Source: Alloascoidea africana
Taxonomy: Eukaryota; Ascomycota; Alloascoideomycetes; Alloascoideales; Alloascoideaceae
Length of the DNA stretch: 64,000 bases
Direction: 5' to 3'
NCBI GenBank assembly: GCA_030581615.1
Contig: JAKTTT010000038.1
Location: forward strand, 62,001 to 126,000
Below, piece by piece: positions 36,413-59,837 of this stretch. The notes under the pieces are model-generated. The model worked only from the letters and a program-made list of their open reading frames with translations. It made no database searches and was not told where the DNA came from. The translations under genes were made by a program, and so were the position numbers. Positions within the stretch are counted from its first letter, which is position 1. The number at the start of each line of letters is the position of its first letter.

Positions 36413-36930
36413 CCCAATTTTCATCCAAAAAAAATGTTTATACAATCTATACAATTAACTGGCTTGGCTTTTTTACTATTTTCTTTTTTTGCAACTAACT
36501 GTTATTCACAAACCAAAAAAAAAAAAAAATAAATTAGTTGTATACACTTGCTTTTACTCTTTGATTTGGCTTTACTATTTCCCAATTTCCCTTTTTTTTT
36601 TAATTTGTATGGTTGTGATAGTCATCATGTTTAACAAAACTCTTCTAGATAGATGAAAAATGTAATGCGGCTAATGGAAAGCTTAAAAAACACAAACCCA
36701 AATATGGTTAATTGGATGAAGGTTTAAAACCTAGATTGTATCACACCGGCCCTGCGTTCTCCAGATGGAGCTTAAACCGACAAACTATCAAACTATCAAT
36801 CGATCAATCAATCGATTGATTGATTCAAGATTACGATACGGATGGATGATCTGCTCTGGGTCCGAAACGGCCGGGGGCTAGTTGGAACGAGCGTGCTGAA
36901 ACGGCAGTCACAGTTCGAACGGATGCTAAA

Positions 36931-36999
36931 AAGCAGAAGCAGAAGCAGTAGCAGAAGCAGAAGCAGAAGTAAAAGCACAAGTAGAAGCAGAAGCAGACA
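36931..36999 (+). repeat. AGAAGC hexanucleotide repeat
   Basis: About eleven imperfect 6-bp units upstream of the second WSC gene. Confidence 0.85.
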
Positions 37000-37088
37000 C
37001 AAACTGGCACTGCGAGCCGTTTCTCTTTTTCCCCCTTTTCTCTTTCTCTTTCTCTTTCTCTTTCTCTTCATCGTTCTTTTCTCTCGCT

Positions 37089-37174
37089 CCAATTCCAATT
37101 CCGATTCCGATTCCAATTCCAATTCAAACGCCAGTGTTAGTTCCAGTTCCAGTTCCAGTTCCAGTTCCAGTTCC
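37089..37174 (+). repeat. Two adjacent hexanucleotide runs (ATTCCN, GTTCCA)
   Basis: Units of 6 bp, six in each run, directly upstream of the chosen start codon of the second WSC gene. Confidence 0.85.
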
Positions 37175-37186
37175 TGGCCATCTCCA

Positions 37187-38989: not shown

Positions 38990-39181
38990 TTTGCACCGTG
39001 GCACCTCCAGGAAACCCAGAACGCGCGTGTGCAGGCAGACCGACTCGAAAAGTAAGAGCAAAAGAACAGCCTTGTTTTCCATTCTTCTTCGTAGCCTGGT
39101 CTGATCAACCACCACCGTCTTTCTTTTTTGTTATCTCTTCCCTTCTCTCTCCTCCTCTCTCTACTTCTTCTTCTCCATCCC

Positions 39182-41572: not shown

Positions 41573-42008
41573 CGACGACGACAACAACGACAACGAAACA
41601 AGTGGAACAGGAAGGAACTGAGCCGTTTTCGTCTCTTGATTGATTGAATTCATAAACCATTATTTTACATAAAAAGTTACACACACACACATTGCATTCC
41701 CATTCCTTATAGATAATAAAATCCCATTTTGCTACTGGCCTGCTACTGGCCTGCTACTGGCCTGCTACTGGCCACACGACAGAACAGAAATATGAAAAAA
41801 AAAAATGAATTCTAGAAACTGACGCTGTCAATGTCTGTTCGGCGATCATAGCGAAACCAAGACGTTTTGTTTCTGTTAAAAGCGTGCGAGGGAAGCAAAA
41901 AATGGTGATGTGTCAAACCTCCTTTTATCGCAAATCCCTTTCTTTGCCTCTTGCCTCTTCCCACTTCTCTTTCTCTTACTCACCATCTTATCCTCGCCTC
42001 CACGGCAC
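41573..42008. other. Intergenic: SLM1 3' region and SEC24 promoter
   Basis: 436 bp with a (CA) run at 41681-41692, an 11-bp tandem repeat at 41731-41773 and a C/T-rich leader before SEC24. No gene. Confidence 0.55.
41731..41773 (+). repeat. 11-bp tandem repeat GCTACTGGCCT, four units
   Basis: Three perfect copies and one copy lacking the last base, in the SLM1-SEC24 spacer. The TGGCC core is partly palindromic. Confidence 0.9.
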
Positions 42009-44846
42009 ATGTCCCGCGATCACCATAGGAAACGAGCCTATCCCAAGGCCCAGTACGGCTACTCCCAGCCCGCGGGGCTGGGGAGCCCGGCACCACACCC
42101 ACCTTCGACCTCAGACCAGTTCTTCTCCCCATCCTCGCTGGGGTCTCCACGACCACCGGCAAATCTTTCACAGGGACAGCAACAGTATCAACAACCGTAC
42201 CAACAACAGTCGCCCGTTGCAGGAGGTCTTTCATCGCAGTTTTCCAACATGAACCTCAACGGACACGGGCACGGCCAAGGAGCCGGAGCCGGAGTTGGTG
42301 CTGGAGCTGGTGGCCGCATTCCCATGAATCAGAACTACAACATTGATCTTTTCCAACAACTGCCTCCGCCCATCAACGATCTGTCGCTGCCGCCTCCTCC
42401 GATTCCTCTGCTTGCGGATCCAACCTCGGGAATAATCCCTGAGAATCCGTCGCCGCAGTACTTCCGATCGACGCTGAATGCGATTCCAACCTCGCACTCT
42501 TTACTGAAAAAGACAAAGCTGCCCCTGGCACTTGTGATTCGACCCTACATCTCACTAACGGACGACCAGTCGCCCGTGCCGGTGATCCAGGACTCGATTG
42601 TCGCGCGATGTCGTCGATGTCGATCCTACATCAATCCTTTTGTGCAGTTTGTCGAGCAACAAAGACGGTGGAGATGCAACATGTGCGGGCTGGGCAACGA
42701 TGTGCCCTCAGCCTTTGACTACGATGCGATCCGGGGGATCCAGATCGACCGGTACAAGCGGTCCGAGCTGAACTGCTCCGTCGTGGAGTTTGTGGCTCCC
42801 ACGGCCTATATGGTGCGCCCACCCCAGCAACTCGTGTACGTGTTTGTTCTGGATGTTTCCGCAAACTCTGTGAAAAATGGACTTTTCGCCGTGGCTTCGA
42901 GAACGATTCTCGAGTCTCTGGACAAGATTCCGAACGTGGACGGGAGGACCAAAATTGCGTTTGTGGGGGTGGACTCAACTCTTCATTATTTCCAGATCCC
43001 ACCTGATGAGCAAAACTTGGAGGCCTCGCTCATGGTCGTGTCCGATCTGGACGAGCCGTTTCTACCGCATCCGCAAAACCTGCTTGCTGGATTGCAACAG
43101 AGTCGCGCGACGATCGAGGCGCTTCTGGAGAAAATGCCCGCCATGTTTGCGGACAATGTGGACTCGAGCTTTGCGCTGGGGCCCGCTTTGAAAGCTGTAC
43201 ACCAGCTGATTTCGCCCATAGGCGGCAAGATCGAGGTGATTGCGGCCTCGTTGCCCAACATTGGCATCGGCAAGCTGGGAACACGCGATGAGGACTCGCT
43301 GTTGAACACGTCGCGCGAATCCGCGCTGTTCAACGCAGCAAATACTTTTTACAAGAGCTTTGCGGTGGATTGCAACAAGTCCCAGATCACCGTGGACATG
43401 TTCTGTGCCTCGTCCGCTTACCAGGACGTGGCATCGCTGGCAAATCTGCCCAGGTACACCGCGGGCCAGATCCATTTCTACCCTGGGTGGAAAGCTCGGG
43501 CTCAGGCTCAGGCTCAGCGCCCGCTCCAGGAGCACCAGGATTTGACCTCGGCCTCGGCTTCGGCCTCAGGGTCAGACTCGGACGCCGTCAAGCTCGCCAC
43601 GGAGTTGTCGAGCCATCTGTCGATGGAAATTGCGCTGGAGGCCGTGCTAAGGGTTCGAGGAAGCAGTGGGCTCCGGATGAGCACGTTCTACGGCAATTTT
43701 TTTTCGCGGTCCAGCGACCTTCTCTCATTCCCGTCGTTCCCGCGGGATCAATCGTATGTAATTGAGGTTGCGATAGATGACACGCTAATCAAGCCGGTGG
43801 CTTACTTCCAGGCGGCCGTTTTGCACTCGACCTGTAAAGGAGAGCGGCGGATCCGGGTTCTCACATTCGCAGTGCCCACGACCGCGAACATTGTGGACGT
43901 GTTTGCCTCAGCGGACCAACAGGCCATCATGGCGTATCTTTCGCATCGGGCCGTGGAAAAAGCGCTGTCGTCGAGACTCGCGGACGCCCGAGACTATCTG
44001 ACCAAGTTCACAGTGGACTTGCTGACGGTTTACAAAAAAGAGCTCGTGCCTGGGAATCACGGAAGCGGTGCACCTCTCCAGATCTCGGCAAACTTGCGAA
44101 TGCTGCCTTTGCTGGTCCAGGCTCTCCAGAAACATATGGCTCTGAGACCCGGCAGATTCCCTTCGGACCATCGCGCGGCGGCTCTCAACTTTTTGACCAC
44201 GGCCCCTGTGCCCCATCTGATCCAGAACCTGTACCCCACGGTCTACTCGCTTCACGATATGCCCGATGAGTGCGGTCTGCCGGCTGTCAAGGCAGCAGAG
44301 GCAGAGGCAGAGCCTGGGGCAGAGCCTGGGGCAGAGCCTGGGGCAGAGCCTGGAGCAGAGGCAGAGGCAGAGACCGAAGCTGGTGGAATTGTGATGCCGA
44401 TTCCTATCAACGCATCTGCCGAGTTTTTGGAACGATACGGATTGTATCTGATACACAACGGAACAGAGCTGTTTCTCTGGGTTGGCGGCGACGCTGTTCC
44501 TGCTCTGTTGAACGATGTTTTTGGACCCGAGCTCCAGGTGCCACTGGGCAAACACGAGCTGCCCGTTGTGGAATCAAGCCTTTTCAACGAACGTGTGCGC
44601 AACATCATAGCGGCGATTCGCGAGCGCACGGGCACGGAAACGGTTGTATACCCCAGCATTTACATTGTGATTGGGGCCGGTGCAAACGACCCAGCGGTGA
44701 ACCCATCGATGCGAAACACTCCTGGCGGTGCCGGCAACGTTGCGTTGAGAATGTGGGCTTTGAGTCTGCTTGTTGAGGACCGTGTGGAGGAATTGAAGAG
44801 CTATAGAGAGCTTCTCACGAGTCTCAGGGCCAAGACCTTGAGCTAG
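42009..44846 (+). CDS. SEC24: COPII coat cargo adaptor Sec24
   Basis: The 945-residue protein (S. cerevisiae Sec24 is 926) has a Gln/Pro-rich N-terminus. Then comes the zinc finger (about 198-222; CRRCRSYINPFVQF then CNMCGLGNDVP, a CxxC...CxxC site), a trunk domain (about 255-520) starting VEFVAPTAYMVRPPQQLVYVFVLDVS, a beta-barrel and helical region, and a gelsolin-like C-terminus with YGLYLIHNGTELFLWVG. With Sec23 it forms the inner COPII layer at ER exit sites and selects cargo. Two low-complexity inserts are built from DNA repeats: Ala/Gln near residue 500 and AEPG repeats near residue 770. ATG 42009 (MSRDHHRKRAYPKAQYGYSQP) fits the family start; an in-frame ATG at 41910 would add a hydrophobic stretch foreign to Sec24. 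Paralogue type (Sec24 rather than Sfb3) is supported by the zinc-finger and trunk wording. Confidence 0.95.
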   Translation: MSRDHHRKRAYPKAQYGYSQPAGLGSPAPHPPSTSDQFFSPSSLGSPRPPANLSQGQQQYQQPYQQQSPVAGGLSSQFSNMNLNGHGHGQGAGAGVGAGAGGRIPMNQNYNIDLFQQLPPPINDLSLPPPPIPLLADPTSGIIPENPSPQYFRSTLNAIPTSHSLLKKTKLPLALVIRPYISLTDDQSPVPVIQDSIVARCRRCRSYINPFVQFVEQQRRWRCNMCGLGNDVPSAFDYDAIRGIQIDRYKRSELNCSVVEFVAPTAYMVRPPQQLVYVFVLDVSANSVKNGLFAVASRTILESLDKIPNVDGRTKIAFVGVDSTLHYFQIPPDEQNLEASLMVVSDLDEPFLPHPQNLLAGLQQSRATIEALLEKMPAMFADNVDSSFALGPALKAVHQLISPIGGKIEVIAASLPNIGIGKLGTRDEDSLLNTSRESALFNAANTFYKSFAVDCNKSQITVDMFCASSAYQDVASLANLPRYTAGQIHFYPGWKARAQAQAQRPLQEHQDLTSASASASGSDSDAVKLATELSSHLSMEIALEAVLRVRGSSGLRMSTFYGNFFSRSSDLLSFPSFPRDQSYVIEVAIDDTLIKPVAYFQAAVLHSTCKGERRIRVLTFAVPTTANIVDVFASADQQAIMAYLSHRAVEKALSSRLADARDYLTKFTVDLLTVYKKELVPGNHGSGAPLQISANLRMLPLLVQALQKHMALRPGRFPSDHRAAALNFLTTAPVPHLIQNLYPTVYSLHDMPDECGLPAVKAAEAEAEPGAEPGAEPGAEPGAEAEAETEAGGIVMPIPINASAEFLERYGLYLIHNGTELFLWVGGDAVPALLNDVFGPELQVPLGKHELPVVESSLFNERVRNIIAAIRERTGTETVVYPSIYIVIGAGANDPAVNPSMRNTPGGAGNVALRMWALSLLVEDRVEELKSYRELLTSLRAKTLS
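44311..44358 (+). repeat. 12-bp coding repeat in SEC24 (AEPG units)
   Basis: Four units of AGCCTGGGGCAG flanked by GAGGCA hexamers, encoding Ala-Glu-Pro-Gly repeats in an exposed loop before the gelsolin domain. Confidence 0.85.
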
Positions 44847-45418
44847 ATCAGAGGTCATATATCAGGATTTGGATTTGGATTTGGATTTGGATGGACGGGC
44901 AATATAAATAGGTGGAAGAGAAAAGACTTGTTGATGTTTTGTGTGTATTTGTTGTGTCTTTCCCTTTTTTGTGTCTTGTTTTTCTTTTCTTTTCTTTTCT
45001 TTCGCTGCTTCATTCTCAATTCTCAATTCTAATCCTAATTTCGAGGTGGATTGGGAGTTTTGAAAACTATCTGCATCGGCGAGATGTCGAATAACCAAAG
45101 GCTCTTTTCCATACTATAGAAAATGGAAAGGATATCGTAAGAGACCGCGTAGACCGCACTCCCAGACCATCCCATTCCAGCACCATCTGGGCTTGCCCTT
45201 TTCTCCTGGTCTGTACGCTCTTGCTCCGAGGCTTCTGGCCTGCTCTGGCCTGCTCAGCTCTGCTCTTGCCTGCTCTTGGCGGGCGGGCGGCGGGCGGTGT
45301 CTGGCTTCTGGCTTCTGGCTTCTGGCTTCTGGCGTCTGGCTCGGTCGCGCCCCGTTCATTCTCCTCTGCCACACCTACACCTCGCTTCTCGTCCACCACG
45401 GCCACGGAATGAACGATC
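44847..45418. other. Intergenic: SEC24 3' region and Rho GEF promoter
   Basis: 572 bp with a GGATTT hexanucleotide run (44865-44893), TTTTC repeats near 44985-45000, TATAAATA at about 44905, and a CTTCTGG heptanucleotide run (45301-45340) in a GC-rich leader. No gene. Confidence 0.55.
45301..45340 (+). repeat. CTTCTGG heptanucleotide repeat
   Basis: Five units (one changed) in the presumed leader of the Rho GEF gene. Confidence 0.8.
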
Positions 45419-48400
45419 ATGGCCCGTCTTTTCAGAAGGAAGCCGCCGCCCAAGGACGACGACGACATCTCGCAGTACTACTCAGACCTCAGACCGCGCC
45501 AGCAGAGCCTGCCGGCCTCGCCCAACTCCGCGCCGTCCCGCCCACGGCCACGGCCTGGCCCAAGACCTCCTCCTCCTGGTGCTGAACCGTGGGCCAGCGA
45601 GCCCTCTGGCCAGAATCGCCACCGCCAGCTCCAGCTCCAGCAGCCCGCCCTTGGCGATGCCCCCGACGGCGAGCCCCAGCTGCCGCAGTCGGCACCGCAG
45701 TCGGCACCGCTGCCTGCTCCCGGCCGCGCGGACCAGCTCTCGGCGAGGATGGCGGCCCCAGCGAGCAGCACTACAGCGTTCGGACACGGCGACGGTGACG
45801 GCCACCAGCTTCACCAAGACCTCCACGACGGGCCCAGCAGGCGTCTGTCGAGCACGTCTGCTGGATCCGACACGACCACGATCCGGGCGCCCAGCGGCGG
45901 ACTCCAGCCAGCCCGCGAGGCTTCTGCTCCAGCTCCTGGCCGGGCTGACAGCACACGGATTCGCCCTCCTCCAGGCACTCTCGCTCCCACGCTGGATCCC
46001 TCGACTCAACCCAGTCTCGCCAGAATCGCCGTTGCGCCGGGACCTGCTCCCGCAAGACACCATTCGGAGGGAAGACTGCACTACTCGCTGTCCTCGTCGT
46101 CCAACTCGTCGTCCTCGTCGTCCTCATCCTCGTCGGCCGCGGCCTACTTGCACCACCACCACCAGCTCGATCCGCTGCAGAAGGCCTTCCCGGGAAGAAC
46201 CGCTTCGCTGAGCTCCCAGGCCGGAAACATCAAAATGGCTTCAGCTCCAGGTTCAGCTCCAGCTCCGGCTCCAGCTCCAGGCTCGGCTCCAGGCTCGCTG
46301 TCGGGGGCCGCCAGCCCCGGCGGCGCCTACCGCTCGAGATCGATCACAAGACCTTCGGTCGGTGCCATACATTCTCCTAGTCGCCCTCCACCACTGCCTC
46401 CCATCCAGCAGACCCAGGTCCTCCTGCCCGCCGCTCCTCCTCTATCGTCATCGTCTTCTTTATCTTCGTCCTCTGGAGCTGCTCAATTCCACCATCACCA
46501 TCACGATTCTCACTCCCATTCTCACTCCTCTGGCCCTCCAACCGCACTGGATGACAGCTACTTCCCTCCTCGCGCAATGACCTCTTCCTCTTTCTCTTCC
46601 TCTTCCTCGCCGCCATCCAATTGGCAGGAGAGACAGGACAGCATAGTCTCAAATGACCCCATCAGCCCACCCAGAGGCGCCTCTGCGGGCTCCCGATTTT
46701 CTGTTTCCTCCTCCTCAAGAAGCAGCTACTCCTATCATCACAACTCAATCAGCAACTCGGATTATGTATCTTATGAAGACATTTATGATTCCTACGCAGA
46801 CAACTACGACAATAACAATAACAATAGCAATAGCAATAGCAATTACCAAGAACAACAACATGATGACGTGGGCAGGCCCATTATGACCCCTAGCCTCGAA
46901 AACTTTCAGTTTGCAAAAACTTATTCCTATCCCTCACTTAGCCCCGAACAGACTGGCACACCTGCACAAGGAGCTCAAAGAGAATCTAGACCTGGCCCTT
47001 CCCACGACGATGATTCCCACCAGGATTCCGCTTCACAGAGATTTGAAAAACAAGACTGTTCAGCTTTCCTCAACTCTTTAGAGGTTTCAAATCGCCAAAA
47101 GTATGAAAATTTCCAGAGATCAAAGACCCAGAATATCACCACCCGATACTCGTCCTATGCAGGCAGACCCATAATGGCCCAGAGAAGAAGTGTACCGGGC
47201 CATCACGCCCTCGAGTCCACTGGACCTGGTGGAAATGGAACTGGAACTGGACCTGGAACTGGACCTGGAACCGCTACAAGCCCTGGGCCTATGGCAGACC
47301 CGGAAATGATACCAAGGAGAAGCAATACAACCCAAACCGTGAGACAGGATAACAGAAACTATGTTTCTCTTGTTCCTCCTGTCCCATTACTCCCCAACAT
47401 TTCAGAAACCCTAGGAAGCTTTGTGTCCCAAAAACTTTCCAGTGAACAATATGAAAGTTGTAAAGGTATATGGTCTCTCAATTATGTATATGAATGGCTC
47501 GGCAACATTTGGAATGCCACTTTAAATACACCACTGGCGGAAGTCAGACTCGCAATCTCCAATTTAATCACACATACAATCCCAACGATGAATTCTAAAA
47601 CCGCAGAAAAATACGCTTCTCACATTTTGGATCGTTTGTTTGAAGAAGAAGCAATTTCTCTTAAAGATTCAGATGATGGTAAAAAATTCTTGGCTTTGCA
47701 TGCCGATATCGAGGTATCGGGCGTTATTCCCATATTAACCGGGAAAGGTTGTTATTCTTGTAAAGTCCATACCAAAGATTGTGAACTTTTACGTGGTAGA
47801 TGCTACAGTTCAAAATGTTCAAGAACTTTACAACTGGTGACTCCAGAACCACCAAAGCTAAAAGGTTATTTGGATTATGAAGAAGATTGGGCCACCTATT
47901 GGCATGTTACATCTGATGAAATTCGTCAATTGGGATTGGACTTGGTCAAGAAACAGAGCCATATCTATGACGTTATCAAGGGTGAAAAAAGATTACTCCG
48001 TCAAAACAAGGTTTTCATAGAGGTTTATGGTGAATCTTTAAGAACCCATTCTCCTCCCTTGGTGGACAACCAAAAGAGCTATTGGCAAAGTGCTTTTGGC
48101 AATATCAAACCAGTTATGGAAACTCATAAAAAACATCTGCTTGATCCGATGCTTCAACGACAGGTTCAACAGGGCAAGTTTATCGAAGGCGTTGCGGATT
48201 TCTTTCTAAATTGGGCCGAAAATGCAGAAAAGGTTTATTTGAATTATTCTTTGGGGCTTAGCAAAGTGATTGATTTCATCAAACGGGAAAAGGAAAAGCC
48301 CAAAAGTGTTTTTGTGGATTGGCTTAAAGAAATGGATCAGGATGAAAGAGTAAAAGCTCTTAAAGTGGATCATAATCGGTTGTTTTCCACTGGTATTATT

Positions 48401-50410
48401 GGCCATGTGGTACAGTACAAGATTATTCTCAAGGCAATCATGGAGAAAACTGATAAAACACATCCACAATATGAACAATATCGCATAGCAATTGAAAAAT
48501 GTAATGAACTTTCTTCAAAGATCAACAGTCAATATTGGAACGGTGAAAAAAAACAAAAGTTTATCGATATGTTGTCTCGAATCGAGTTTAGAAATTTTAA
48601 ACGCAGTAATCTTGGCGTTTCGGGTCCTGATAGATGTATTATTTATCATGGAATGGTTTCGAGAAAGGCATTACTTAACACTGTTCAATCTTGTTATCTC
48701 ATCCTTTTTGACAGCTTTTTGTTGATCTGCGAGGTTGTTAAAACACCCACTGATAGTCGGTACAGAGTAATTGAAGAGCCGATCCCCATTGCGCTGCTCG
48801 TTGTCGAACTGCCTTCAAATGATGAAATGACCTCCGCTGTTCGACCTTCCTCTCCTGATACGGAAAAGGCACCGTTGAAAACCCGTCGCTCATCTTCTCT
48901 TTACTCCACAACAACGGGATTAAACGGTGGTGGTGGTGGTGCATCATCAGCGGATAAATGGTACGATTTTAAAGTCAGACATTTGGGTAAAGATGGCCAA
49001 TCCTACACTTTTTATACACGGGATTTGGAAGACAGAACCGCTTGGATCGGGATGATTCTAAAGGCTAAAAAAGCTTTCAATTACGACAAGTTGAAACGGA
49101 ATTTCGAACCTTTCCAACTCATGGTATTGGCAGATTATTCTTTTGCCCTTGAATCATTTGCGGTTCCGGATAAAGTGCCTTTATATATTGAAGCAAACGC
49201 AGTTGATATGGCAATAAGACCAATCGATCAAAACTATGTGAATGAAGCACATCGTTTCCCCAAAGCACGTTTCACTTCAACGATTTTATGTGCTACTTCC
49301 TTCATGTATGACAATATTGATTATGTCCTTTTCGGTACACAAATAGGTGTTTTCATTGCCGAATCTGGTGATACAAACAGTTGGCGAAAATTGTTGGATT
49401 TGAAAGCTGTTTCCCAGATTGAAATTCTCACTGGGTTTGATGTTATTGTTGCATTATCAGAACGGAATCTGGTGCATTTCGCTTTGGACAATGTTATGAG
49501 CGCTTACAAGAAATCGGATAAGCCTGTTTCGGCCACAATGAGACGGCTTTCTAAAGATGATGTCTATTTTTTCAAAGTGGGCGTTATGAATGGAGTTGTA
49601 AATGTTTTCTACATGAAGAAGGAAAGCGTCACAACAACGTCCAAATTCAAAGTGATGGTACCTGTTTTGGACGAGGCAAGAAACAAAAAGATGGAATATT
49701 TTAGAAATTCCCGCAAGTTTTACGTTCAATGTGAATGTTCGGATTTAAGCATTTTCAATACAACTGTTGTTGTTCACAGTACAAAAGGGTTTGAACTAAT
49801 GAGTATTCAATTTTTACAACCCATGAGTATCCCAGAACTGAACGTTGGGAATTATGTTCCTCAAAGTCGGAAAAACATTCAGAATACGATGAATTTTAAT
49901 TTCGAATACACGAGAAAGAAACTTCTTTCTTCTCCAACTTCCTCCATTTCTGTAAAACCTTTGGGAATGTACAGAATCAAGAACAATTCAGGAGATACTG
50001 AATTTTTGTTATGTTATGATGAATTTGCGATTTTTTGTAGTCCCGATGGACTGATTTCAAGACCACTCATGATCGAGTACAATTGTAAAGCAAACAGTGT
50101 TGCCTATGATAAAGGGTTTTTAATTATTGTGGGCACGGACATGTTAGAGATTCGAAAGATCGAGGAGCCCAAATTCGGTTCAACACATCGACAAAACAGT
50201 GTTCAGGTTAATGACCGACTTCTTTTCCCGACTATAGGATCCGTGAAACAGATTATCACCGGTAAAAATATCAAATTACTTGATAAAAAAACCGGCCAGA
50301 TCAAAATCTCATTCTGCCATCCTCGTGCTGCAGATAGACAGATTGTAGTTCAATTGATTCCGAACCATTCCTACGTTGATGATTCGGCAAATGCAATAGG
50401 TGTAAAGTAA
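45419..50410 (+). CDS. Rho1 guanine nucleotide exchange factor (DH-PH-CNH), Rom2/Tus1-like
   Basis: The 1663-residue single-exon protein is the largest in the window. Residues 1-640 are low complexity: Pro/Ala/Ser runs, His clusters, Asn/Ser and Gly/Thr repeats. A DEP-like helical segment (about 690-770: MNSKTAEKYASHILDRLFEEEAISL) is followed by a Cys cluster (GCYSCKVHTKDCELLRGRCYSSKC). The DH domain (about 835-1030) includes QSHIYDVIKGEKRLLRQN, IGHVVQYKIILKAIMEKTDKTHPQY; the PH domain spans about 1070-1210; a CNH (citron homology) domain, about 1280-1590, starts TSTILCATSFMYDNIDYVLFGTQIGVFI. This order is that of yeast Rom1, Rom2 and Tus1, which activate Rho1 for glucan synthesis and Pkc1 signalling. 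The N-terminus is longer than in those proteins (about 1155-1356 residues). GC is very high to about 46760 and then falls. Which paralogue it is remains open. Confidence 0.92.
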   Translation: MARLFRRKPPPKDDDDISQYYSDLRPRQQSLPASPNSAPSRPRPRPGPRPPPPGAEPWASEPSGQNRHRQLQLQQPALGDAPDGEPQLPQSAPQSAPLPAPGRADQLSARMAAPASSTTAFGHGDGDGHQLHQDLHDGPSRRLSSTSAGSDTTTIRAPSGGLQPAREASAPAPGRADSTRIRPPPGTLAPTLDPSTQPSLARIAVAPGPAPARHHSEGRLHYSLSSSSNSSSSSSSSSSAAAYLHHHHQLDPLQKAFPGRTASLSSQAGNIKMASAPGSAPAPAPAPGSAPGSLSGAASPGGAYRSRSITRPSVGAIHSPSRPPPLPPIQQTQVLLPAAPPLSSSSSLSSSSGAAQFHHHHHDSHSHSHSSGPPTALDDSYFPPRAMTSSSFSSSSSPPSNWQERQDSIVSNDPISPPRGASAGSRFSVSSSSRSSYSYHHNSISNSDYVSYEDIYDSYADNYDNNNNNSNSNSNYQEQQHDDVGRPIMTPSLENFQFAKTYSYPSLSPEQTGTPAQGAQRESRPGPSHDDDSHQDSASQRFEKQDCSAFLNSLEVSNRQKYENFQRSKTQNITTRYSSYAGRPIMAQRRSVPGHHALESTGPGGNGTGTGPGTGPGTATSPGPMADPEMIPRRSNTTQTVRQDNRNYVSLVPPVPLLPNISETLGSFVSQKLSSEQYESCKGIWSLNYVYEWLGNIWNATLNTPLAEVRLAISNLITHTIPTMNSKTAEKYASHILDRLFEEEAISLKDSDDGKKFLALHADIEVSGVIPILTGKGCYSCKVHTKDCELLRGRCYSSKCSRTLQLVTPEPPKLKGYLDYEEDWATYWHVTSDEIRQLGLDLVKKQSHIYDVIKGEKRLLRQNKVFIEVYGESLRTHSPPLVDNQKSYWQSAFGNIKPVMETHKKHLLDPMLQRQVQQGKFIEGVADFFLNWAENAEKVYLNYSLGLSKVIDFIKREKEKPKSVFVDWLKEMDQDERVKALKVDHNRLFSTGIIGHVVQYKIILKAIMEKTDKTHPQYEQYRIAIEKCNELSSKINSQYWNGEKKQKFIDMLSRIEFRNFKRSNLGVSGPDRCIIYHGMVSRKALLNTVQSCYLILFDSFLLICEVVKTPTDSRYRVIEEPIPIALLVVELPSNDEMTSAVRPSSPDTEKAPLKTRRSSSLYSTTTGLNGGGGGASSADKWYDFKVRHLGKDGQSYTFYTRDLEDRTAWIGMILKAKKAFNYDKLKRNFEPFQLMVLADYSFALESFAVPDKVPLYIEANAVDMAIRPIDQNYVNEAHRFPKARFTSTILCATSFMYDNIDYVLFGTQIGVFIAESGDTNSWRKLLDLKAVSQIEILTGFDVIVALSERNLVHFALDNVMSAYKKSDKPVSATMRRLSKDDVYFFKVGVMNGVVNVFYMKKESVTTTSKFKVMVPVLDEARNKKMEYFRNSRKFYVQCECSDLSIFNTTVVVHSTKGFELMSIQFLQPMSIPELNVGNYVPQSRKNIQNTMNFNFEYTRKKLLSSPTSSISVKPLGMYRIKNNSGDTEFLLCYDEFAIFCSPDGLISRPLMIEYNCKANSVAYDKGFLIIVGTDMLEIRKIEEPKFGSTHRQNSVQVNDRLLFPTIGSVKQIITGKNIKLLDKKTGQIKISFCHPRAADRQIVVQLIPNHSYVDDSANAIGVK

Positions 50411-51025
50411 GAAATAACAAAAGCTGGACTCGTTTTTTTTTTTTTCAACTCTCCCATATTTTTTTTGTTCTCTCATCATATTCATAAACTACATATTTTA
50501 CATTTATTACATTTACATGTTCGTTTACCATTTTTTTATTGTTTCATATATTGTTTTGTTCTTTTGAAGAAAAACATAATAATAGTTTCAAACTGTGTTG
50601 ATTTATCGATTTTTGGCCGTTTTTCATTTTCATTGTTTAGTACAGTTTCTTTTTGTGGTTCTCTCTCGATCTCTATATAGCTAAGTTGTTGTTTTCCGCA
50701 TACACTTGTTGGGCGTTGTTTTTTTTTTTTTGCTCGTTCTTTTCTGGGCGTTTTATATATCCTTAGATTCAGAAAACTTGTGTTAGTTTTTCTTTTTTGT
50801 TTTTTGTCTTTTGTTTTACTCAAATCCAAAACTATGTGAATCATGCAATCAACTTTTATGGTTCATGTGTTTTGGGGGAAAGTATTTTGTCGTTCTTGAT
50901 AATGTGAAATTTGATGTTTCGAAAATCTCCTAGTTGCAATGTTAACAGGGGGGTTGGTGTTACTTCTCCCATCATCTGTCTCACTTTAGAGAACCATAAA
51001 GAACACTACTGTATCGTCTACTACA
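50411..51025. other. Intergenic: Rho GEF 3' region and PurE promoter
   Basis: 615 bp, T-rich with several T-runs. Searched for a PurK/ATP-grasp domain in all frames and found none; an in-frame stop lies shortly upstream of the PurE ATG. Confidence 0.6.
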
Positions 51026-51562
51026 ATGGCAACAACTTCGACAACCCCTCTTGTTGGAATCATCATGGGATCCGACTCGGATCTTCCAGTAATGTCAGCG
51101 GGGGCGAAGATCCTGGACATGTTCAACATCCCCTATGAACTCACAATTGTGTCTGCTCATCGAACTCCAGCGCGAATGGTTGAATACGCACACGAGGCAG
51201 CAGACCGTGGTCTCAAAGTCATCATTGCGGGAGCAGGAGGAGCTGCCCATTTACCGGGGATGGTCGCGGCCATGACACCGTTGCCTGTGGTGGGAGTGCC
51301 CGTCAGGGCGTCCAATCTGGAGGGACTGGACTCGTTGCTGTCCATCGTACAAATGCCCCGTGGTGTGCCCGTATCCACAGTTGCAATCAACAATAGTACA
51401 AACGCGGCTTTACTGGCGGTCAAGATCCTGGGGACGTTTATGCCCGAAGTTCAGGCTGAGTTGGTAGAGTACTCCAAGGACATGGAAAAGGAGGTTTTGG
51501 AGAAAGCAGCAAGACTAGAAAAAGTTGGATATGAAGAGTACTTGATGACAAAAACAATATAG
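51026..51562 (+). CDS. Free-standing PurE: phosphoribosylaminoimidazole carboxylase domain
   Basis: A complete 178-residue class I PurE. Visible motifs are [17 protein letters not shown] (nucleotide-binding loop, residues about 10-26), [11 protein letters not shown] (active-site His, about 41-51), [28 protein letters not shown] and [32 protein letters not shown]. PurE makes CAIR in de novo purine synthesis. In fungi it is normally the C-terminal third of Ade2, fused to PurK; here it has its own ATG and no PurK sequence is adjacent. The wording ([40 protein letters not shown]) is that of fungal Ade2, not of bacteria, so fission or partial duplication of ADE2 is likelier than recent transfer. 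Its stop is 13 bp from the stop of the convergent reductase gene. Confidence 0.93.
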
Positions 51563-51575
51563 AAAACTATATATA

Positions 51576-52574
51576 TCAATGGCCATATTGTTTCACTCGG
51601 TGGTTTACAGCCTGTAGAGAATAGTATATTGTTTTCAAAACAGGTACTTTAACGCCCAACTTGTCAGCCGCTCTAATGACGTTCCCAGAAAGAACCTCGT
51701 ACTCAATCTCTTTCCCCCTTCTTACATCTTGAAGAGTACTTGGAACAAACCCATCATCATCTTTGGATATCTGCCAATCGATAAGAGCTGTGAATTTGGA
51801 CAATGGTGGCCATTTGGATTCGCCAAACTTGTGTAATCCAACTTGCCAAATCTCGGTCATAATGTCATACAGTAATTGAACGGATCCTGCATCGATGATT
51901 TCTTTCACCTTGAGGTTCAAAATAGCAGTGGAATTGTTGAAAGTGCCATTGCTTACGACTTTGGACCATCGTTCCAAAATTATGTCCTCACTAATGCTAG
52001 CAGTAATTCCAACTTTGACAGAAATGGAGTTGAATTTTGCCAATTGGTCCACATGTTTCTGAACCTTGTGCCAAGGCTCAACAAGACCAAACGCAATGAT
52101 GAACCGACCATAGGAGTAGTACGTCACCTCGTTTGGACCAGTTAGCCCAACGGCAACTCGAACCACACTTGAAACAAGAGGGATGTTGGGGTATAGCTTT
52201 TGATAAGGCTCCTCAATGTCCACTCCGTTTTGGGCCAGGATCAAAAGTGTATCTGGACCTGCGAATCGGTCGAGATTGGGCACAGCAAAGTCAGGAACAA
52301 CTTTGGAGGCCACAAAGATGTAGTCGTAGGGTTCCTCAGAGTACTCTTTTGCAGTCTCCTCGTTGAATACACGATCCACCGTAAACGTCGTGTTATTCCC
52401 AGAGTCAGTTGGATCAATTAGGTGGATCTTGTCCTGAATCTGGTCAAAGTTGGACCTTGCAAGTACCCCAATTTTGACGGATGGGATCGTTTTCTTTAAT
52501 AGAAAAGCATAGCTGAGCCCCACACCACCAGCACCAACTATGAGAACAGAGATTGACTCATCTACTTTTGTCAT
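51576..52574 (-). CDS. 2-dehydropantoate 2-reductase-like protein (ApbA/PanE family)
   Basis: The 332-residue protein has an N-terminal Rossmann fold (VLIVGAGGVGLSYAFLLKK, residues about 9-27) and downstream blocks typical of the PanE/ApbA family: YDYIFVASKV, LILAQNGVDIEEP (with the NG motif), and the C-terminal helical domain with ERWSKVVSNGTFNNSTAIL and LQDVRRGKEIEYEVLSGNVIRAADKLGVKVPVLKTIYYSLQAVN. Key family residues Lys (in RWSK) and the N.S.....G...E segment are recognisable. True ketopantoate reductase makes pantoate with NADPH on the way to coenzyme A; fungi carry several paralogues of unknown substrate, so the exact reaction is open. A CACGTGA site lies 109 bp upstream of the ATG. Confidence 0.88.
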   Translation of the reverse strand: MTKVDESISVLIVGAGGVGLSYAFLLKKTIPSVKIGVLARSNFDQIQDKIHLIDPTDSGNNTTFTVDRVFNEETAKEYSEEPYDYIFVASKVVPDFAVPNLDRFAGPDTLLILAQNGVDIEEPYQKLYPNIPLVSSVVRVAVGLTGPNEVTYYSYGRFIIAFGLVEPWHKVQKHVDQLAKFNSISVKVGITASISEDIILERWSKVVSNGTFNNSTAILNLKVKEIIDAGSVQLLYDIMTEIWQVGLHKFGESKWPPLSKFTALIDWQISKDDDGFVPSTLQDVRRGKEIEYEVLSGNVIRAADKLGVKVPVLKTIYYSLQAVNHRVKQYGH

Positions 52575-52682
52575 TGTGCCAGGTCTAGAAGAAGAAGAAA
52601 AAGAAAAAGAAGAAACCTATGGTGTTTTTATATTAGAAAACCAAGGCCTAGATACTGATAAGCCGCGGATTTAAAGTGATAG

Positions 52683-52689
52683 CACGTGA
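52683..52689 (+). promoter_or_regulatory. CACGTGA motif upstream of the ketopantoate-reductase-like gene
   Basis: E-box core 109 bp before the minus-strand start codon; candidate Cbf1-type site. Confidence 0.45.
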
Positions 52690-52903
52690 CATACATATAT
52701 ATCTCGCCCTTTCCGCGTAGTTATGAATAATGTATTTTTTTCTAGTTTACTCTCTCAGTCTTGGTTGAACTGTTCTGTACTCTAGAATATAGTCTTGAAT
52801 AATGGGAAAGGAAGGAAGAAGTTGGGATACGAGTTGGAAGCGTATGCCCAGACAAAATGACTTTGCACGCTTTCTACTTTCGGCTTTCTGATTTCTGCTC
52901 TGC

Positions 52904-53033
52904 TTCAGCATCAATATCAGCATCAGCATTAGCATCAGCATTAGCATCAGCTTCAGCACCAGCTTCAACACCAGCTGGAGGCCCAGTCCAGTTCTCCTAG
53001 CATCAGCATTTCCATTTCCATTTCCATTTCCAC
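52904..53033 (+). repeat. AGCATC and TTTCCA hexanucleotide runs
   Basis: Two separate runs of 6-bp units (52904-52974 and 53008-53033) in a noncoding spacer. Confidence 0.85.
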
Positions 53034-53233
53034 CACCGGCCAGCCCGCGTTACCCGGCGCGGAGTATTTAATAACCGTCGCAGGCTGCCAGAATCCTCGA
53101 ATGCTCCATCAGCTGATCCCCCGTGTAGAGAAAGTAGTCGCCGTAGATCCTTTTTCTCTTCTCTTTCGCCTTCTCAGCTCGCCTGCTCCCACTTCCCCCA
53201 TCGTCTGAGTCTGCCAGAGCACGAAGTGGGAGA

Positions 53234-54754
53234 ATGTCCAACAAGCGCAGAAAAAGCAGCTACGGTGAGTCTCTCTAGTTACCCTCCCACCACTTTGCGT
53301 GCGGGCAAGCTGGGCTGCGACCACCTTCTCCAGCACAGCAGTCCACTGCCACCTCATTCTCCAGTAGCGCACAGCTCGAGCCTCGACTGCCCTCGCACGC
53401 TCTGTCCCCCCGTCCTGTCTTGTGCCCGTTGTGCCATTGTTCCGTGGAAGTAGAAAACCAGCTTTATTAACATGTCGACAGAGATCGTCCGAGAAAACGT
53501 CACCGATGGTCGGACGGGCGAGCCTCGAGAGATTTCCTACACCCAGGTCAAGATGGTTGGCCATGGCTCGTTTGGAGTCGTCTTTCAAACAAAGCTTCTG
53601 CCTAGCAATCAGGATGCCGCGGTGAAGAAGGTTCTACAGGACCGACGTTTCAAGGTATGCTTGTTGTCGTTGTTGTTGTTTTTTTGTTGTGGGCCAAATT
53701 CCTCAATTCCCCGAAAATTTGGCCCCTCCCTCTACGCTGTTTATTGAATGGTTTTCTAACTGTTTCGAATATCAATTCGTGCTGGTTGTAGAATCGAGAA
53801 CTCGAAATAATGAGAGTCGTCCATCACCCGAACGTGGTTGATCTAATAGCTTTTTACTACTCGAAAACCGACCGCGACAAGGTGTACTTGAATCTAATAC
53901 AAGAATACGTCCCGGAGACGGTCTACCATGCTTCGCATTTCTATACGAAACAAAAGACAACAATGCCCATGTTGGAGGTCAAGCTCTATACCTATCAGAT
54001 CTTTCGCTCTTTGGCTTATATTCACTCCAAGGGAATCTGTCACAGAGATATAAAGCCCCAGAACCTGCTCGTCGATACACGAACCGGCATTCTGAAACTT
54101 TGCGATTTTGGCTCGGCAAAAGTGCTTGTCCCCACGGAACCCAACGTGTCCTACATTTGCTCGAGATATTACCGTGCCCCAGAACTGATTTTTGGAGCTG
54201 TAAATTATACAACCAAAATTGATACCTGGTCCGCCGGTTGCGTAATGGCAGAACTCATGCTTGGTCAACCCCTTTTCCCCGGTGAATCTGGAATTGACCA
54301 ACTGGTCGAAATAATCAAGGTCTTGGGCACCCCTTCAAAAGAACAAATTTGTACTATGAATCCAGCTTACATGGAGCACAAATTCCCCCAAATTAAAGCT
54401 CTACATTTCTCCAAAGTTCTGCGAAAGGGTCCTCCCGATTCCATAGATCTGATTAGCAAGATACTCGAGTACTCGCCGGGTACCCGACTCTCTGCAGTTG
54501 AAGCAATGGCTCATCATTTCTTTGACGAGTTAAGGGATCCTCAAACGCGTTATACTAATGGTCATTCAAATTCATCTTCAAGAGAACTTCCTCCCTTGTT
54601 TGATTTCGATGAAAATGAACTTAGTATTGCACCAGAGTTGAATGAAAAACTGATCCCACAACATGCAAGAAAAGACCTCCTGGAGAAGAAAGGAATCGAT
54701 TTGGCAACTTTTGTTCCAAAATCGAAACAGGAGATGCGTGCCCAGTTGAATTAG
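53234..54754 (+). CDS. GSK3: Glycogen synthase kinase 3 family protein kinase
   Basis: Preferred model: three exons (53234-53264, 53482-53654, 53792-54754), 388 residues. Intron 1 (217 bp) runs from GTGAGT to a CAG preceded by TTATTAAC; intron 2 (137 bp) has GTATGC, TTCTAAC and TAG. The product begins [16 protein letters not shown]. An alternative 381-residue form starts at ATG 53472, inside intron 1, and reads MSTEIVREN. Kinase motifs are complete: GHGSFGVV (Gly loop), AAVKKVLQ (Lys), [21 protein letters not shown], and [12 protein letters not shown] with the activation-loop Tyr and the Arg of the phosphate-priming pocket. It then follows the GSK3 pattern [25 protein letters not shown] and NYTTKID. 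GSK3 kinases of yeasts (Rim11, Mck1, Mrk1) act in meiosis entry, stress and wall signalling. The invariant Leu of QNLL is encoded by CTG. Confidence 0.94.
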
Positions 54755-56407
54755 AATGAAACAAACCAAACCAAGCCAAACCAAACTGAGCTGAACTGAA
54801 CTGAACTGAACTGACCTCAACTTTCCCGCTACTTTCCCCTCAACATGAACCTGAATCTGAAATATAACAAAAAAAAAAATAAAAGTAAATATCGAGACAT
54901 GCCACTTACCAAATCCTAAATGTTGTGAATAGTAGAATATCATTCACTTTTCTTTTTTTTGTTGTTTTGTTTTGTTGTGTTTTAATTTTTTTTTTTTGTT
55001 TCTCTCATAATTGTCATTTTTATAGGCCTTCTTTTTCCCAAGATGTCATACGCTGCTGGTGCTTTTTAATTTGAGAAACGTTAAAAGGTTGAGCGAGTGA
55101 GTGAGTGAATAGCACAAGTTAATATAAATGAGAGACCGAAATTTGAAGAAAAATGCAAAAAAACAATAAAACAAGAGAAAATTGGATGGTTGAAAAGTGG
55201 AAATGGAGAGCGTTTTGTCTTGAAAGAATGGGAAGAAAAAGGGGAAGGGAAAATGGACGGCTAAAAAGAAAAAAAGAAAAACCCGAAAAAAAAAGGAAAA
55301 CTCAGTGATTAATTTAAGGGAGTAAAAAGATTAAAAAAATTGGAACGAGACGAGACGAGCGAGAAGTAATGGTGAGAGAAGAGAATGATGAAGATGAAGA
55401 TGGACAACTTGAGTTACTCCGTGAAGGTTGGTTGATCTGAGCAAGCTTTATATAACGTACAGTGGGGGATGTGTTTTTCGATAAATTGATTTGTTACAAA
55501 ATTATAATTAGAAGAAAACTTTAAGAAGGTCTTTTTTTATCTGGAAAAAACCAAAAAAGGTATTCCAATATTTATCGTAGTAGTACAAGTTTCCCCTGTT
55601 GATTATTCGTAACGTTTAAATTTCCAATTCAGAAAATCGGAAACTTACAATCTGGGAAATGCATCCAGTTAAAAGCCAACAAAAAGAGAAACCAGTCCAA
55701 ATGGAAAACAATAAAATGGAATGATATAATTATGGAAAAGGAAATGCCGGGAACTGCCTAAATCCGAAAGCCGACAATTGCTTGCAAACAAGATAGAAAC
55801 TATTATGTCGCCTATATCAACAAAGCCGACAAATTGCGACAAAAAAATGTCCGGACATTTTACTAATACCAGAACAGTGGTAATCGGTTTTTACGGTTAA
55901 ACTAAAGGACGAGAGTGTAAAGTCGAGTTTTTTTCTCAAAGTATCTTTCTAACGGTTATATAAATGTGTTTTCTGTGAGTGAAGCTAACGCGCGTGTCTA
56001 CGTATTTTCCTCTCTACATGAGCAGTATCCACTTCCAACATTCCCACCAGTTATAGAGCTAGAAGAAGAAGCAGATAGAAATTGACAAGTGGTGAAAGTG
56101 CATAAACAGCGCACACAGGATTAAGTTAGACCAAAACATAAGACATAATAATGTAACTATGTATGCAAGCGATGATGGAACCAAACATCATATGTATAGG
56201 GAAGAAGAAAAAAAAAAAAAAACATAAAGTTTCGAAGTAATCAACTTCTGGGGCATAACGATTAGATTGAAGAAGATTCTTTCTAACAAGACTTGTTCAT
56301 TATCAAAGAATCCGCAGGGGTTTGGTCAAGGACCGGCCGGGGGAATCAATATCCGCCTCCATCTGTAATCATCATAGTAACGATGAGCATTTTTCCACAT
56401 AATTATT
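54755..56407. other. Long intergenic region between convergent GSK3 and ERG3
   Basis: 1.65 kb. Starts with AACCAAACCAAG and CTGAA pentanucleotide units (54762-54815), then A/T-rich sequence with long A- and T-runs. No open frame with a recognisable product and no RNA gene identified. Its length is unusual for a convergent spacer, so an unannotated noncoding RNA is possible but unsupported. Confidence 0.5.
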
Positions 56408-57475
56408 CTACTCCAGTTTCGAAGAGACTGCTGCATATTCTCGCTGATCTTCTTCAGATTCCACTTCTTTCCGTATTTTTTCCATCTCTGCCGTCTGTTT
56501 GGACCAGGTCGACTTTGCCATCTTCAAATCCTTATCCCACAACTCTTGTTCTGCCCTTCGATAACTACCACCTAGTCTATCCCACAGTGTTGTAAACTGG
56601 CCATAGTTATAATTAAAGTAAAGATGGTGCACTGTATGACATGCTGTACCGTTAATCGCCGCATTATCTGTCAAAAATTCACCATCGTGAATTAAAACAG
56701 TCCAAACGTTGACAAACACAAACAAAACCAAGTATGCCAACTTGTGCAAGGGGAAGAAAAAGGGGAACATATGATAGGGTAAGGACTGGAAGTATCCATC
56801 AACCGGATGAAATGCATGGGAAGCAAATGGAGTACAAACAATCCATTTATGGTGTGGTTTGTGAAGTACTTTATAAATGAAGGGAATATGGAGCCATTTG
56901 TGGATGTAGTATATACCACAATCAGTAAACATGATGAATAACGGGAACTGGAGAAAAAGGTACAATACCCCCCAATCCTCAACGTTCCAGTACAATTTGC
57001 CAAAACCTCGGATTTCAAGTAGGAACCAAGGTACAGTAAGCAAACTCATGAAAGGAATAGCCGAGAGAGCAAGGTTTATTTCCAATTTCATTTGATTTCT
57101 GAGGTACTTTGGATGGTTAAACGTTCGATGATCAAAAATAAAAATGTATGATAGACTTGCGCATAGCAGGTATAAAATAGCGCCGAAGAGCCAAACAGTT
57201 ATGAATAAGGAGGTGAACTGTCTCAGAATGTGATGTCTTGCAAATATCGATTTGGTCATATATTCCGAAGCAGGAAAATAAACAGGTTGATGTCCGTAGA
57301 AATGATTAGTTACCGACGAAGGACTCATAAAGTCGCTATCAACTCCAGAGTAGTTTCCGACATGGAGTCTTTTTGAAAGATATGAAGGGATATTCTCCAC
57401 CGTTGATCTAGGAAACAAGTTGGCGTATATCCGGTCAAACACATATGTGTCCAATCCTTCCAGAACGAGATCCAT
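56408..57475 (-). CDS. ERG3: C-5 sterol desaturase
   Basis: The 355-residue ER membrane protein introduces the C5-C6 double bond in episterol during ergosterol synthesis, using cytochrome b5 electrons and a di-iron site. The three His boxes of the fatty-acid hydroxylase superfamily are present: HKWLH (about 190), HKPHH (about 205) and HTVHH (about 280). Family wording such as VPWFLLEIRGFGKLY, FPLFIMFTDCGIYYIHKWLH, TPFASHAFHPVDGYFQSLPYH and FTTLWDRLGGSYRR is clear. Four to five hydrophobic segments lie at about 85-110, 135-155, 165-190 and 230-255. Length matches yeast Erg3 (365). A TCGTATA heptamer, the Upc2/Ecm22 sterol response element core of S. cerevisiae, lies about 317 bp upstream. Confidence 0.97.
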   Translation of the reverse strand: MDLVLEGLDTYVFDRIYANLFPRSTVENIPSYLSKRLHVGNYSGVDSDFMSPSSVTNHFYGHQPVYFPASEYMTKSIFARHHILRQFTSLFITVWLFGAILYLLCASLSYIFIFDHRTFNHPKYLRNQMKLEINLALSAIPFMSLLTVPWFLLEIRGFGKLYWNVEDWGVLYLFLQFPLFIMFTDCGIYYIHKWLHIPFIYKVLHKPHHKWIVCTPFASHAFHPVDGYFQSLPYHMFPFFFPLHKLAYLVLFVFVNVWTVLIHDGEFLTDNAAINGTACHTVHHLYFNYNYGQFTTLWDRLGGSYRRAEQELWDKDLKMAKSTWSKQTAEMEKIRKEVESEEDQREYAAVSSKLE

Positions 57476-58731: not shown

Positions 58732-59718
58732 TTAGATCTCTGTGGACAGTTTTGTCTTTGAAGAAATATCGTTTTCATATGCTCTTTTAGCCATCTCTCG
58801 CAATTTTTCCTCTTGAGCAGGAGTCATTGGTTTGATTGCCTTTCGAGGTTCAACAAATGTGAAATGTCCAAATCCAAAATCTCTATCGGAAAAATGTGCA
58901 AGCAGATACAGTTGTGAACGCGTATACCGAACCATTTTTTCAACATGTTCATAGTTTACATTCTCATTCCCACCAAAGAAATTTCTCCATAATGCGGAAC
59001 TCAAAGCCGCATCATCTGTATAGAAACCCTCATCATATGCCAGAATCGCTCCTCTCAGTTGACTGTTGAAATCTTTCAGATAGCGCTCAATGAGACTGTT
59101 TGATTTGATGCCGATTTCATTGCTCAGCCGAGCTTCCATATCACTGAAATGACGATCTATAAGTTTTTGCTGGTATGCTTGGCCATACTTGAAAGGCATG
59201 GCTCTCATTCTGACAAACAACATCCATTCGTGTAGAATTGTAATCTGGAACCATTGGGAAAATGACCGTGGTAAACCAAGCTCCTCATAGTAAAACTTTG
59301 CAGTAGAAGATAGAGGGACATCTTCAAATTGAAGCCCCTGTTCACGACATATGCCATAGTAAACAGACCCGGCTATAGGTCCGGCCCTCACTCTATCCAT
59401 ATCGAGTCTGAATACTTTTGTAACAACCTCAGCAATGTCTGCTTTCCATTTGGCAACTCGGAGGCCAGGCTGGTCATACTTGGACTGCAAGCGTAGTCGA
59501 GGATCCTCGGTCCTAAACTTTTCCTCTTGTCGCTTTGGAGCATCGATAATAGCTTTTTCGGCGTCTAGTGCCTTCTCTGTTGCCTGTTTTAGACTTTCAT
59601 TTCGAGATATGCTGGATGTTGAGAACTGCTTAAAAGTGGGATAAAGAGATGTAGTCGTCCACCCCTTAGCCACAGTGGGACCTAACCGACTTTGTAAAAG
59701 CAATCCTCTCGTGAGCAT
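58732..59718 (-). CDS. CBP3: Ubiquinol-cytochrome c reductase assembly chaperone
   Basis: The 328-residue protein starts at ATG 59718 with an Arg/Ser/Thr-rich mitochondrial presequence (MLTRGLLLQSRLGPTVAK); upstream codons lack an ATG. The Cbp3/UQCC1 domain (about 140-300) is recognisable: YYGICREQGLQFEDVPLSSTAKFYYEELGLPRSFSQWFQITILHEWMLFVRMRAMPF, then RYLKDFNSQLRGAILAYDEGFYTDDAALSSALWRNFFGG. In S. cerevisiae, Cbp3 with Cbp6 binds mitochondrial ribosomes, activates COB mRNA translation and chaperones new cytochrome b during assembly of complex III. Length agrees with yeast Cbp3 (335). A CACGTGA motif lies 120 bp upstream of the start codon. No intron. Confidence 0.95.
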   Translation of the reverse strand: MLTRGLLLQSRLGPTVAKGWTTTSLYPTFKQFSTSSISRNESLKQATEKALDAEKAIIDAPKRQEEKFRTEDPRLRLQSKYDQPGLRVAKWKADIAEVVTKVFRLDMDRVRAGPIAGSVYYGICREQGLQFEDVPLSSTAKFYYEELGLPRSFSQWFQITILHEWMLFVRMRAMPFKYGQAYQQKLIDRHFSDMEARLSNEIGIKSNSLIERYLKDFNSQLRGAILAYDEGFYTDDAALSSALWRNFFGGNENVNYEHVEKMVRYTRSQLYLLAHFSDRDFGFGHFTFVEPRKAIKPMTPAQEEKLREMAKRAYENDISSKTKLSTEI

Positions 59719-59837
59719 TTCGTTACTCTGTATGTACAATGGATGAAAAGCTTTGGCAACAGCACCTTTTCCAATATCAAAATGTCTATGCGTGCCTTCT
59801 CAAAGTTAGGAGTAAAAAAAAATTTGTTCCTTGGTGG

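Follow-up and report, generated by a model that had tools for sequence, protein, structure and literature searches.

A PurE-only gene beside an intact ADE2 in the yeast Alloascoidea africana: a probable extra N5-CAIR mutase

INTRODUCTION

Fungal Ade2 is a fusion of PurK and PurE, and both halves are normally joined in one protein. The locus described here codes for PurE with no PurK attached, and raises the question of where such a gene came from and what it may do beside, or in place of, the fusion. It lies in a 64,000-nucleotide stretch of the Alloascoidea africana genome (hereafter the window), which falls inside a 229,842-bp contig (C38) and contains no N. The first-pass annotation, made from the sequence alone, offered three readings, namely, fission of ADE2, a PurE-only duplicate beside an intact ADE2, and a lineage that carboxylates AIR without PurK, and it preferred ancestry within Ade2 to bacterial transfer.

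RESULTS

The PurE-only gene and its neighbours

The features of the window that bear on this question are the following.

45419–50410, + strand: Rho GEF with WH_RGF3, RhoGEF, PH_5 and CNH domains, upstream neighbour (open reading frame and domains)
50411–51025, + strand: 615-bp spacer 5′ of the PurE-only gene, presumed promoter and 5′ UTR
51026–51562, + strand: PurE-only gene, 178 aa, class I N5-CAIR mutase with AIRC domain (open reading frame, profile matches and model)
51576–52574, − strand: ketopantoate-reductase-like protein (KPR) with ApbA and ApbA_C domains, downstream and convergent (open reading frame and domains)
53810–54754, + strand: protein kinase, presumably GSK3-like, member of a paralogous block; in this frame the kinase domain is N-terminally incomplete (profile from position 52)
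56408–57475, − strand: FA_hydroxylase-domain protein, which we take to be an ERG3-like sterol desaturase, member of the same paralogous block

The PurE-only open reading frame begins with ATG, terminates with TAG and codes for 178 residues, and a further TAG at 50987 is in frame with the ATG, 12 codons ahead of it. The product matched PF00731 with 220.2 bits, covering profile positions 2–147 of 148, and the NCBIfam purE equivalog TIGR01162 with 219 bits (cut-off 149.6). The complete class I PurE with its own ATG and the in-frame stop just upstream, both described by the first-pass annotation, were thus confirmed. AIRC was the sole domain found, and the PurK ATP-grasp domains that a bifunctional Ade2 carries in the same protein were absent from it. 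Among PDB entries, class I PurE proteins scored up to 236.6 bits, against 33.5 bits for chain 2h31, which we take to be human PAICS. The protein is therefore not close to the PAICS-type sequences of class II PurE (animal AIR carboxylase), the class being read from overall scores and not from the six class-distinguishing residues.

The AlphaFold2 model had a mean pLDDT of 86.9, with blocks 41–50 and 91–110 at 69–76 and residues 1–5 below 50. It showed the PurE fold, and the most similar PDB structure was 1o4v (T. maritima PurE; TM 0.84, 67% identity). PurE-only retains 56 of the 57 columns that do not vary among 35 other PurE proteins, S43, H45 and H75 being among those retained; we assume catalytic roles for these conserved core residues. 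The sole lost column is A117S, a change that is also present in the ADE2 of the same genome. At each of the six CTG codons of the gene, leucine prevails in the alignment column (in 26 to 33 of the 35 other proteins), and a CTG-Ser code is therefore unlikely. The product is thus predicted to be a class I PurE, which should convert N5-CAIR to CAIR.

The Rho GEF frame stops at 50410 and leaves 615 bp to the ATG, and the end of the KPR frame on the opposite strand is separated from that of PurE-only by 13 bp, in agreement with the annotated Rho GEF on one side and reductase on the other. When the ADE2 protein of the same genome was compared with the whole 64-kb window by tblastn, the single significant match was to its PurE half (residues 391–559, E 4e-82); the runner-up had E 0.47, so that no significant match to PurK or a PurK remnant was found in the window, and the reported lack of PurK sequence in the 615 bp before the gene held. 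The spacer itself gave no match to the loci examined (blastn, E ≤ 0.01; L002, L011 and L019 excluded as overlapping or flanking). TGACTC/GAGTCA, presumably the Bas1/Gcn4-type site, is absent both from the spacer and from the 324 bp upstream of ADE2.

Two other observations were made in the window. Adjacent Ser/Thr-rich frames at 33971–36412 and 36842–38989 have similar cysteine-rich N-terminal parts, WSC-like by eye, and form an apparent tandem duplicate. The KPR family is apparently rare: 4161 candidates yielded 13 proteins at E ≤ 0.001, of which those named to species are from Blastobotrys and Trichomonascus.

An intact ADE2 elsewhere in the genome

We searched the assembly to which the window belongs (23.18 Mb, 138 contigs). 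PF00731 was found at two places, namely, the PurE-only gene and C3:547166–547603, the latter within a 586-aa open frame. PF02222 was found at eight places, of which one was strong (215.7 bits, in the same C3 frame as AIRC) and the other seven scored 38.9 bits or less. On C3, a single reading frame encodes the 564-aa ADE2 product, in which preATP-grasp, ATP-grasp, PurK_C and AIRC domains are all present, and SAICAR synthetase, the next enzyme of the pathway, is encoded at one place. These results indicate that an additional PurE is encoded alongside a normal ADE2 in this genome, as in the second of the three readings. Fission as the sole event is refuted by the fusion on C3, and so is a lineage without PurK, since PurK is retained there. 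Splicing of the PurE exon to a misassembled upstream PurK exon, the outcome that would have overturned the annotation, is disfavoured because the sole strong PurK place in the genome is that in ADE2.

PurE-only as an in situ duplicate of the ADE2 neighbourhood was rejected, because the neighbours on C3 (a Rho-type GTPase-like frame, a glutaredoxin-like frame and a kinase, all named by eye) differ from those in the window. The first of these, a 791-aa Rho/Cdc42-like GTPase frame with long extensions at both termini (C3:544109–546484, L023:4109–6484), lies tail to tail with ADE2. In a tree of PurK halves, as distinct from the PurE-half trees below, this ADE2 adjoins Nadsonia, Sugiyamaella and Blastobotrys (93/85).

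Origin within Ade2

PurE-only and the PurE half of ADE2 from the same genome are identical at 137 of 169 residues (81%), and homology between the two is detectable in the PurE half alone, from PLVGII to near the C-terminus. In the PurE trees, where the window protein is P0001, it grouped with its own ADE2 and with two further proteins, P0003 and P0122. In a 52-row tree that included bacterial, archaeal and plant rows, this four-member clade (97/88) lay inside the fungal Ade2 clade (98/93), and in a 21-row yeast tree the same clade stood apart from 17 other yeast Ade2 PurE halves with 100/99. Both trees speak against bacterial transfer, which we reject, and support the preference for ancestry within Ade2. 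By its sequence, then, PurE-only is a paralogue that descends from the C-terminal part of ADE2.

The order inside the four-member clade was less clear-cut. The best 21-row tree placed the A. africana ADE2 outside P0001, P0003 and P0122 (82/93), and alternatives inside the clade gave AU p values of 0.21–0.32, including 0.32 for P0001 with P0003 (not the best tree) and 0.27 for P0001 with its own ADE2. P0122 and P0003 were paired with 95/81 in the 52-row tree and 73/67 in the 21-row tree. Individual sites pointed in both directions, with six (including S117) tying PurE-only to its own ADE2 and four (including Y37, D60 and K151) tying it to P0003. These mixed patterns lean slightly against simple orthology of PurE-only and P0003, and would fit one old duplication with some later gene conversion.

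A second yeast species and other PurE proteins without PurK

A protein search with PurE listed 120 matches from at least 8000 scored candidates, and 11 of the 120 sequences were read. P0003, a PurE-only protein of 176 aa that starts MSSQKPLVGII, had the highest identity among the matches listed (76%) and is encoded on a 5,778-bp contig. It belongs to another species, since the A. africana genome has two AIRC places and neither is P0003. The top match among the 13 found with KPR, P0242 (64%), is also encoded on a 5,778-bp contig; from this equal length P0003 and P0242 would be neighbours on one contig, and the pair of PurE and reductase has probably been conserved in the second species since the two lineages split. 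P0122, the closest Ade2 among the matches listed (70%), was paired with the A. africana ADE2 in the PurK-half tree (100/99) and may come from the same species as P0003.

Thus P0003 resembles the window protein in length, in identity, in the short N-terminus before PLVGII and probably in its neighbour gene. The PurE half of the fungal fusion is likewise close to PurE-only, from the same clade and 81% identical over 169 aa, but the fusion differs in that PurE-only is without PurK domains and is a separate gene in another neighbourhood. Stand-alone class I PurE proteins of bacteria and archaea resemble it in length, fold and the 56 of 57 invariant residues, as seen with 1o4v (236.6 bits, TM 0.84); in contrast to these, PurE-only descends from a fungal fusion, which the genome still carries beside it, and no separate PurK gene was found. 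Predicted plant proteins (Alnus, Camellia, Primulina and Pistacia) also have PF00731 alone among the matches listed, but those of Alnus and Camellia formed a separate clade in the 52-row tree, and some of the plant proteins are perhaps isoforms or partial gene models. In the fungal-looking P0005, P0006, P0007, P0013 and P0036, PurK_C or linker sequence is present, which suggests truncated gene models, and P0004 is without a start. A search of open-licence full-text literature by title and start of abstract found no report of a PurE-only yeast gene beside ADE2.

Two further proteins deserve mention on their own account. The 181-aa prediction P0019 comes from a 546,651-bp contig under the label Cerrena zonata; its start apparently falls in the linker, and the 52-row tree places it with the yeast Hyphopichia. 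Its status is doubtful, and it could represent a mislabelled yeast, a truncated gene model or a second instance of PurE alone. P0002 (Pistacia atlantica) has two tandem PurE domains and no PurK, maybe as a gene-model artefact. This tandem organization resembles an arrangement in Methanobacteria described in PMC3261824.

Constraint and age

Between PurE-only and ADE2, dN was 0.146 and dS 2.08 (NG86), a dN/dS of about 0.07. The two differ at 139 of 507 bases (27%), with 91 of the 139 differences at third codon positions, and at 47 of 81 fourfold sites. Because dS is saturated, the duplication is old but carries no date, and saturated synonymous sites together with small protein change indicate that the frame has been preserved by purifying selection. 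Against 98 near-invariant columns of 116 yeast Ade2 PurE halves, PurE-only departs at seven, its own ADE2 at six and P0003 at nine; five of the departures of PurE-only are common to its own ADE2, and F37Y and K94R are absent from that protein. Differences between PurE-only and Ade2 number 3 in the 63 residues at 71–133, 11 at 31–62 and 18 at 139–175. PurE-only is a real, old paralogue that accompanies an intact ADE2, and it looks like an extra enzyme subunit and not like a broken or split ADE2.

A paralogous block without PurE

The genes around PurE-only belong to a segment that recurs in the genome as follows.

C28:215641–239612: segment paralogous to window 39128–57475
C50:97093–99622: segment paralogous to the same part of the window
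C16:104376–107658: as above
C63:25777–37817: as above
C3:233259–237393: further paralogous segment
C48:114652–117985: further paralogous segment
C9:18843–20090: further paralogous segment

C28 carries the RhoGEF, reductase (62%), kinase (83%) and desaturase (80%) in the order and orientation of the window, and its gap between RhoGEF and reductase is 100 bp long with no PurE. C50 carries the reductase (56%) and kinase (66%), and C16 the kinase (69%) and desaturase (73%). No PurE remnant was detected in the 12 paralogous loci searched, where two matches were obtained, both with E 9.5. PurE either came after the duplication that gave C38 and C28, or was lost from C28.

In the reductase tree, the C50 copy grouped with P0243 at no more than 83/84, and P0242 fell with the C38 copy at low support (67/42), its pairing with C28 having AU p 0.086. 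A clade of the three A. africana reductases was rejected by the AU test (p 0.005), which indicates that the C50 reductase copy arose before the two species diverged. The recurring segments suggest ancient polyploidy, perhaps in two rounds, or hybridization.

Close copies of the window genes number four for the kinase, four for the RhoGEF, four for the protein at 39128–41572, three each for the reductase and desaturase, and two for a Sec24-like gene; the Ubiq_cyt_C_chap gene at 58732–59739 is single copy. The RhoGEF at C28:215641–219144 (L016, L017 and L020) is the most diverged of its four close copies, although the adjoining kinase, desaturase and reductase are the closest paralogues, and this divergence counts against a simple picture.

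DISCUSSION

We consider it likely that PurE-only arose by partial duplication of ADE2 and has been kept as an extra N5-CAIR mutase beside the full ADE2, acting alone or mixed with Ade2. In an ancestor of the lineage, the PurE half alone would have been copied and inserted into the gap between the Rho GEF gene and the convergent KPR gene, where it would have gained its own start and promoter. Since then it would have been retained as an intact gene beside full ADE2, with the pair of PurE and reductase persisting in the second species. The product would be a normal class I PurE subunit that forms homo-octamers or joins the PurE core of Ade2 and catalyses the conversion of N5-CAIR to CAIR, and the benefit may be more mutase relative to PurK and capture of unstable N5-CAIR. 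N5-CAIR is described as unstable in PMC3261824, so that free PurE would improve capture of the intermediate of Ade2.

According to PMC3261824, CAIR is formed from AIR by the E. coli enzyme when bicarbonate is high, an E. coli strain deleted for purK is rescued when PurE is overexpressed (stated again in the review PMC10912719), and several archaea possess a class I-like PurE and lack PurK. Together with the possible expression of a free PurE gene apart from PurK, these findings speak for a PurK-independent branch, in which PurE-only at high CO2 would turn AIR, or N5-CAIR formed without enzyme, into CAIR and spare the ATP of PurK. We regard such a PurK-sparing role as unlikely, as the genome has an intact PurK-PurE, the sequence is that of an ordinary class I enzyme (up to 236.6 bits against 33.5 for 2h31), and S. 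solfataricus purE, also according to PMC3261824, does not complement purK. Slighter still is the chance that PurE-only is a structural or regulatory subunit that joins the Ade2 octamer and alters the number or stability of its PurK units, its own catalysis being unimportant. The titles of 3oow and 3opq describe octameric PurE, and the core at 71–133 is near-identical to that of Ade2, but a purely structural protein would not need 56 of 57 invariant columns.

Equally improbable to us is that ADE2 was partially duplicated in each lineage independently, or that the copy is decaying. The AU values for alternative orders of the inner clade, and the six sites shared with ADE2 as against four with P0003, would allow separate origins; the equal 5,778-bp contigs of P0003 and the top KPR match suggest the same insertion site, and the low dN/dS, saturated dS and intact frame argue against decay. 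Fission of ADE2, an assembly error or bacterial transfer we consider highly improbable even taken together: the absence of PurK beside PurE-only is the one observation in favour, whereas the intact fusion on C3 speaks against fission, the 27% nucleotide divergence against an assembly copy, and the position inside the fungal Ade2 clade against transfer.

PurE-only is unusual, yet each of its components is of a known kind. It sits in a yeast genome with signs of large-scale duplication, and we retain partial duplication of ADE2, with the copy kept as an additional mutase, as the preferred explanation. We also put forward, as a speculation that is unlikely to hold, that the free ADE2-derived PurE has been kept for long because it can be regulated apart from PurK, either to remodel the Ade2 octamer or, in niches rich in CO2, to carboxylate AIR in a reaction that is driven by CO2 and spares ATP. 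If true, a separately regulated free PurE would be a partial return to the prokaryotic arrangement. Long retention of a free PurE next to the intact fusion offers a natural experiment on what the fusion is for, be it fixed stoichiometry or channelling of N5-CAIR, and on whether added mutase can relieve the need for PurK.
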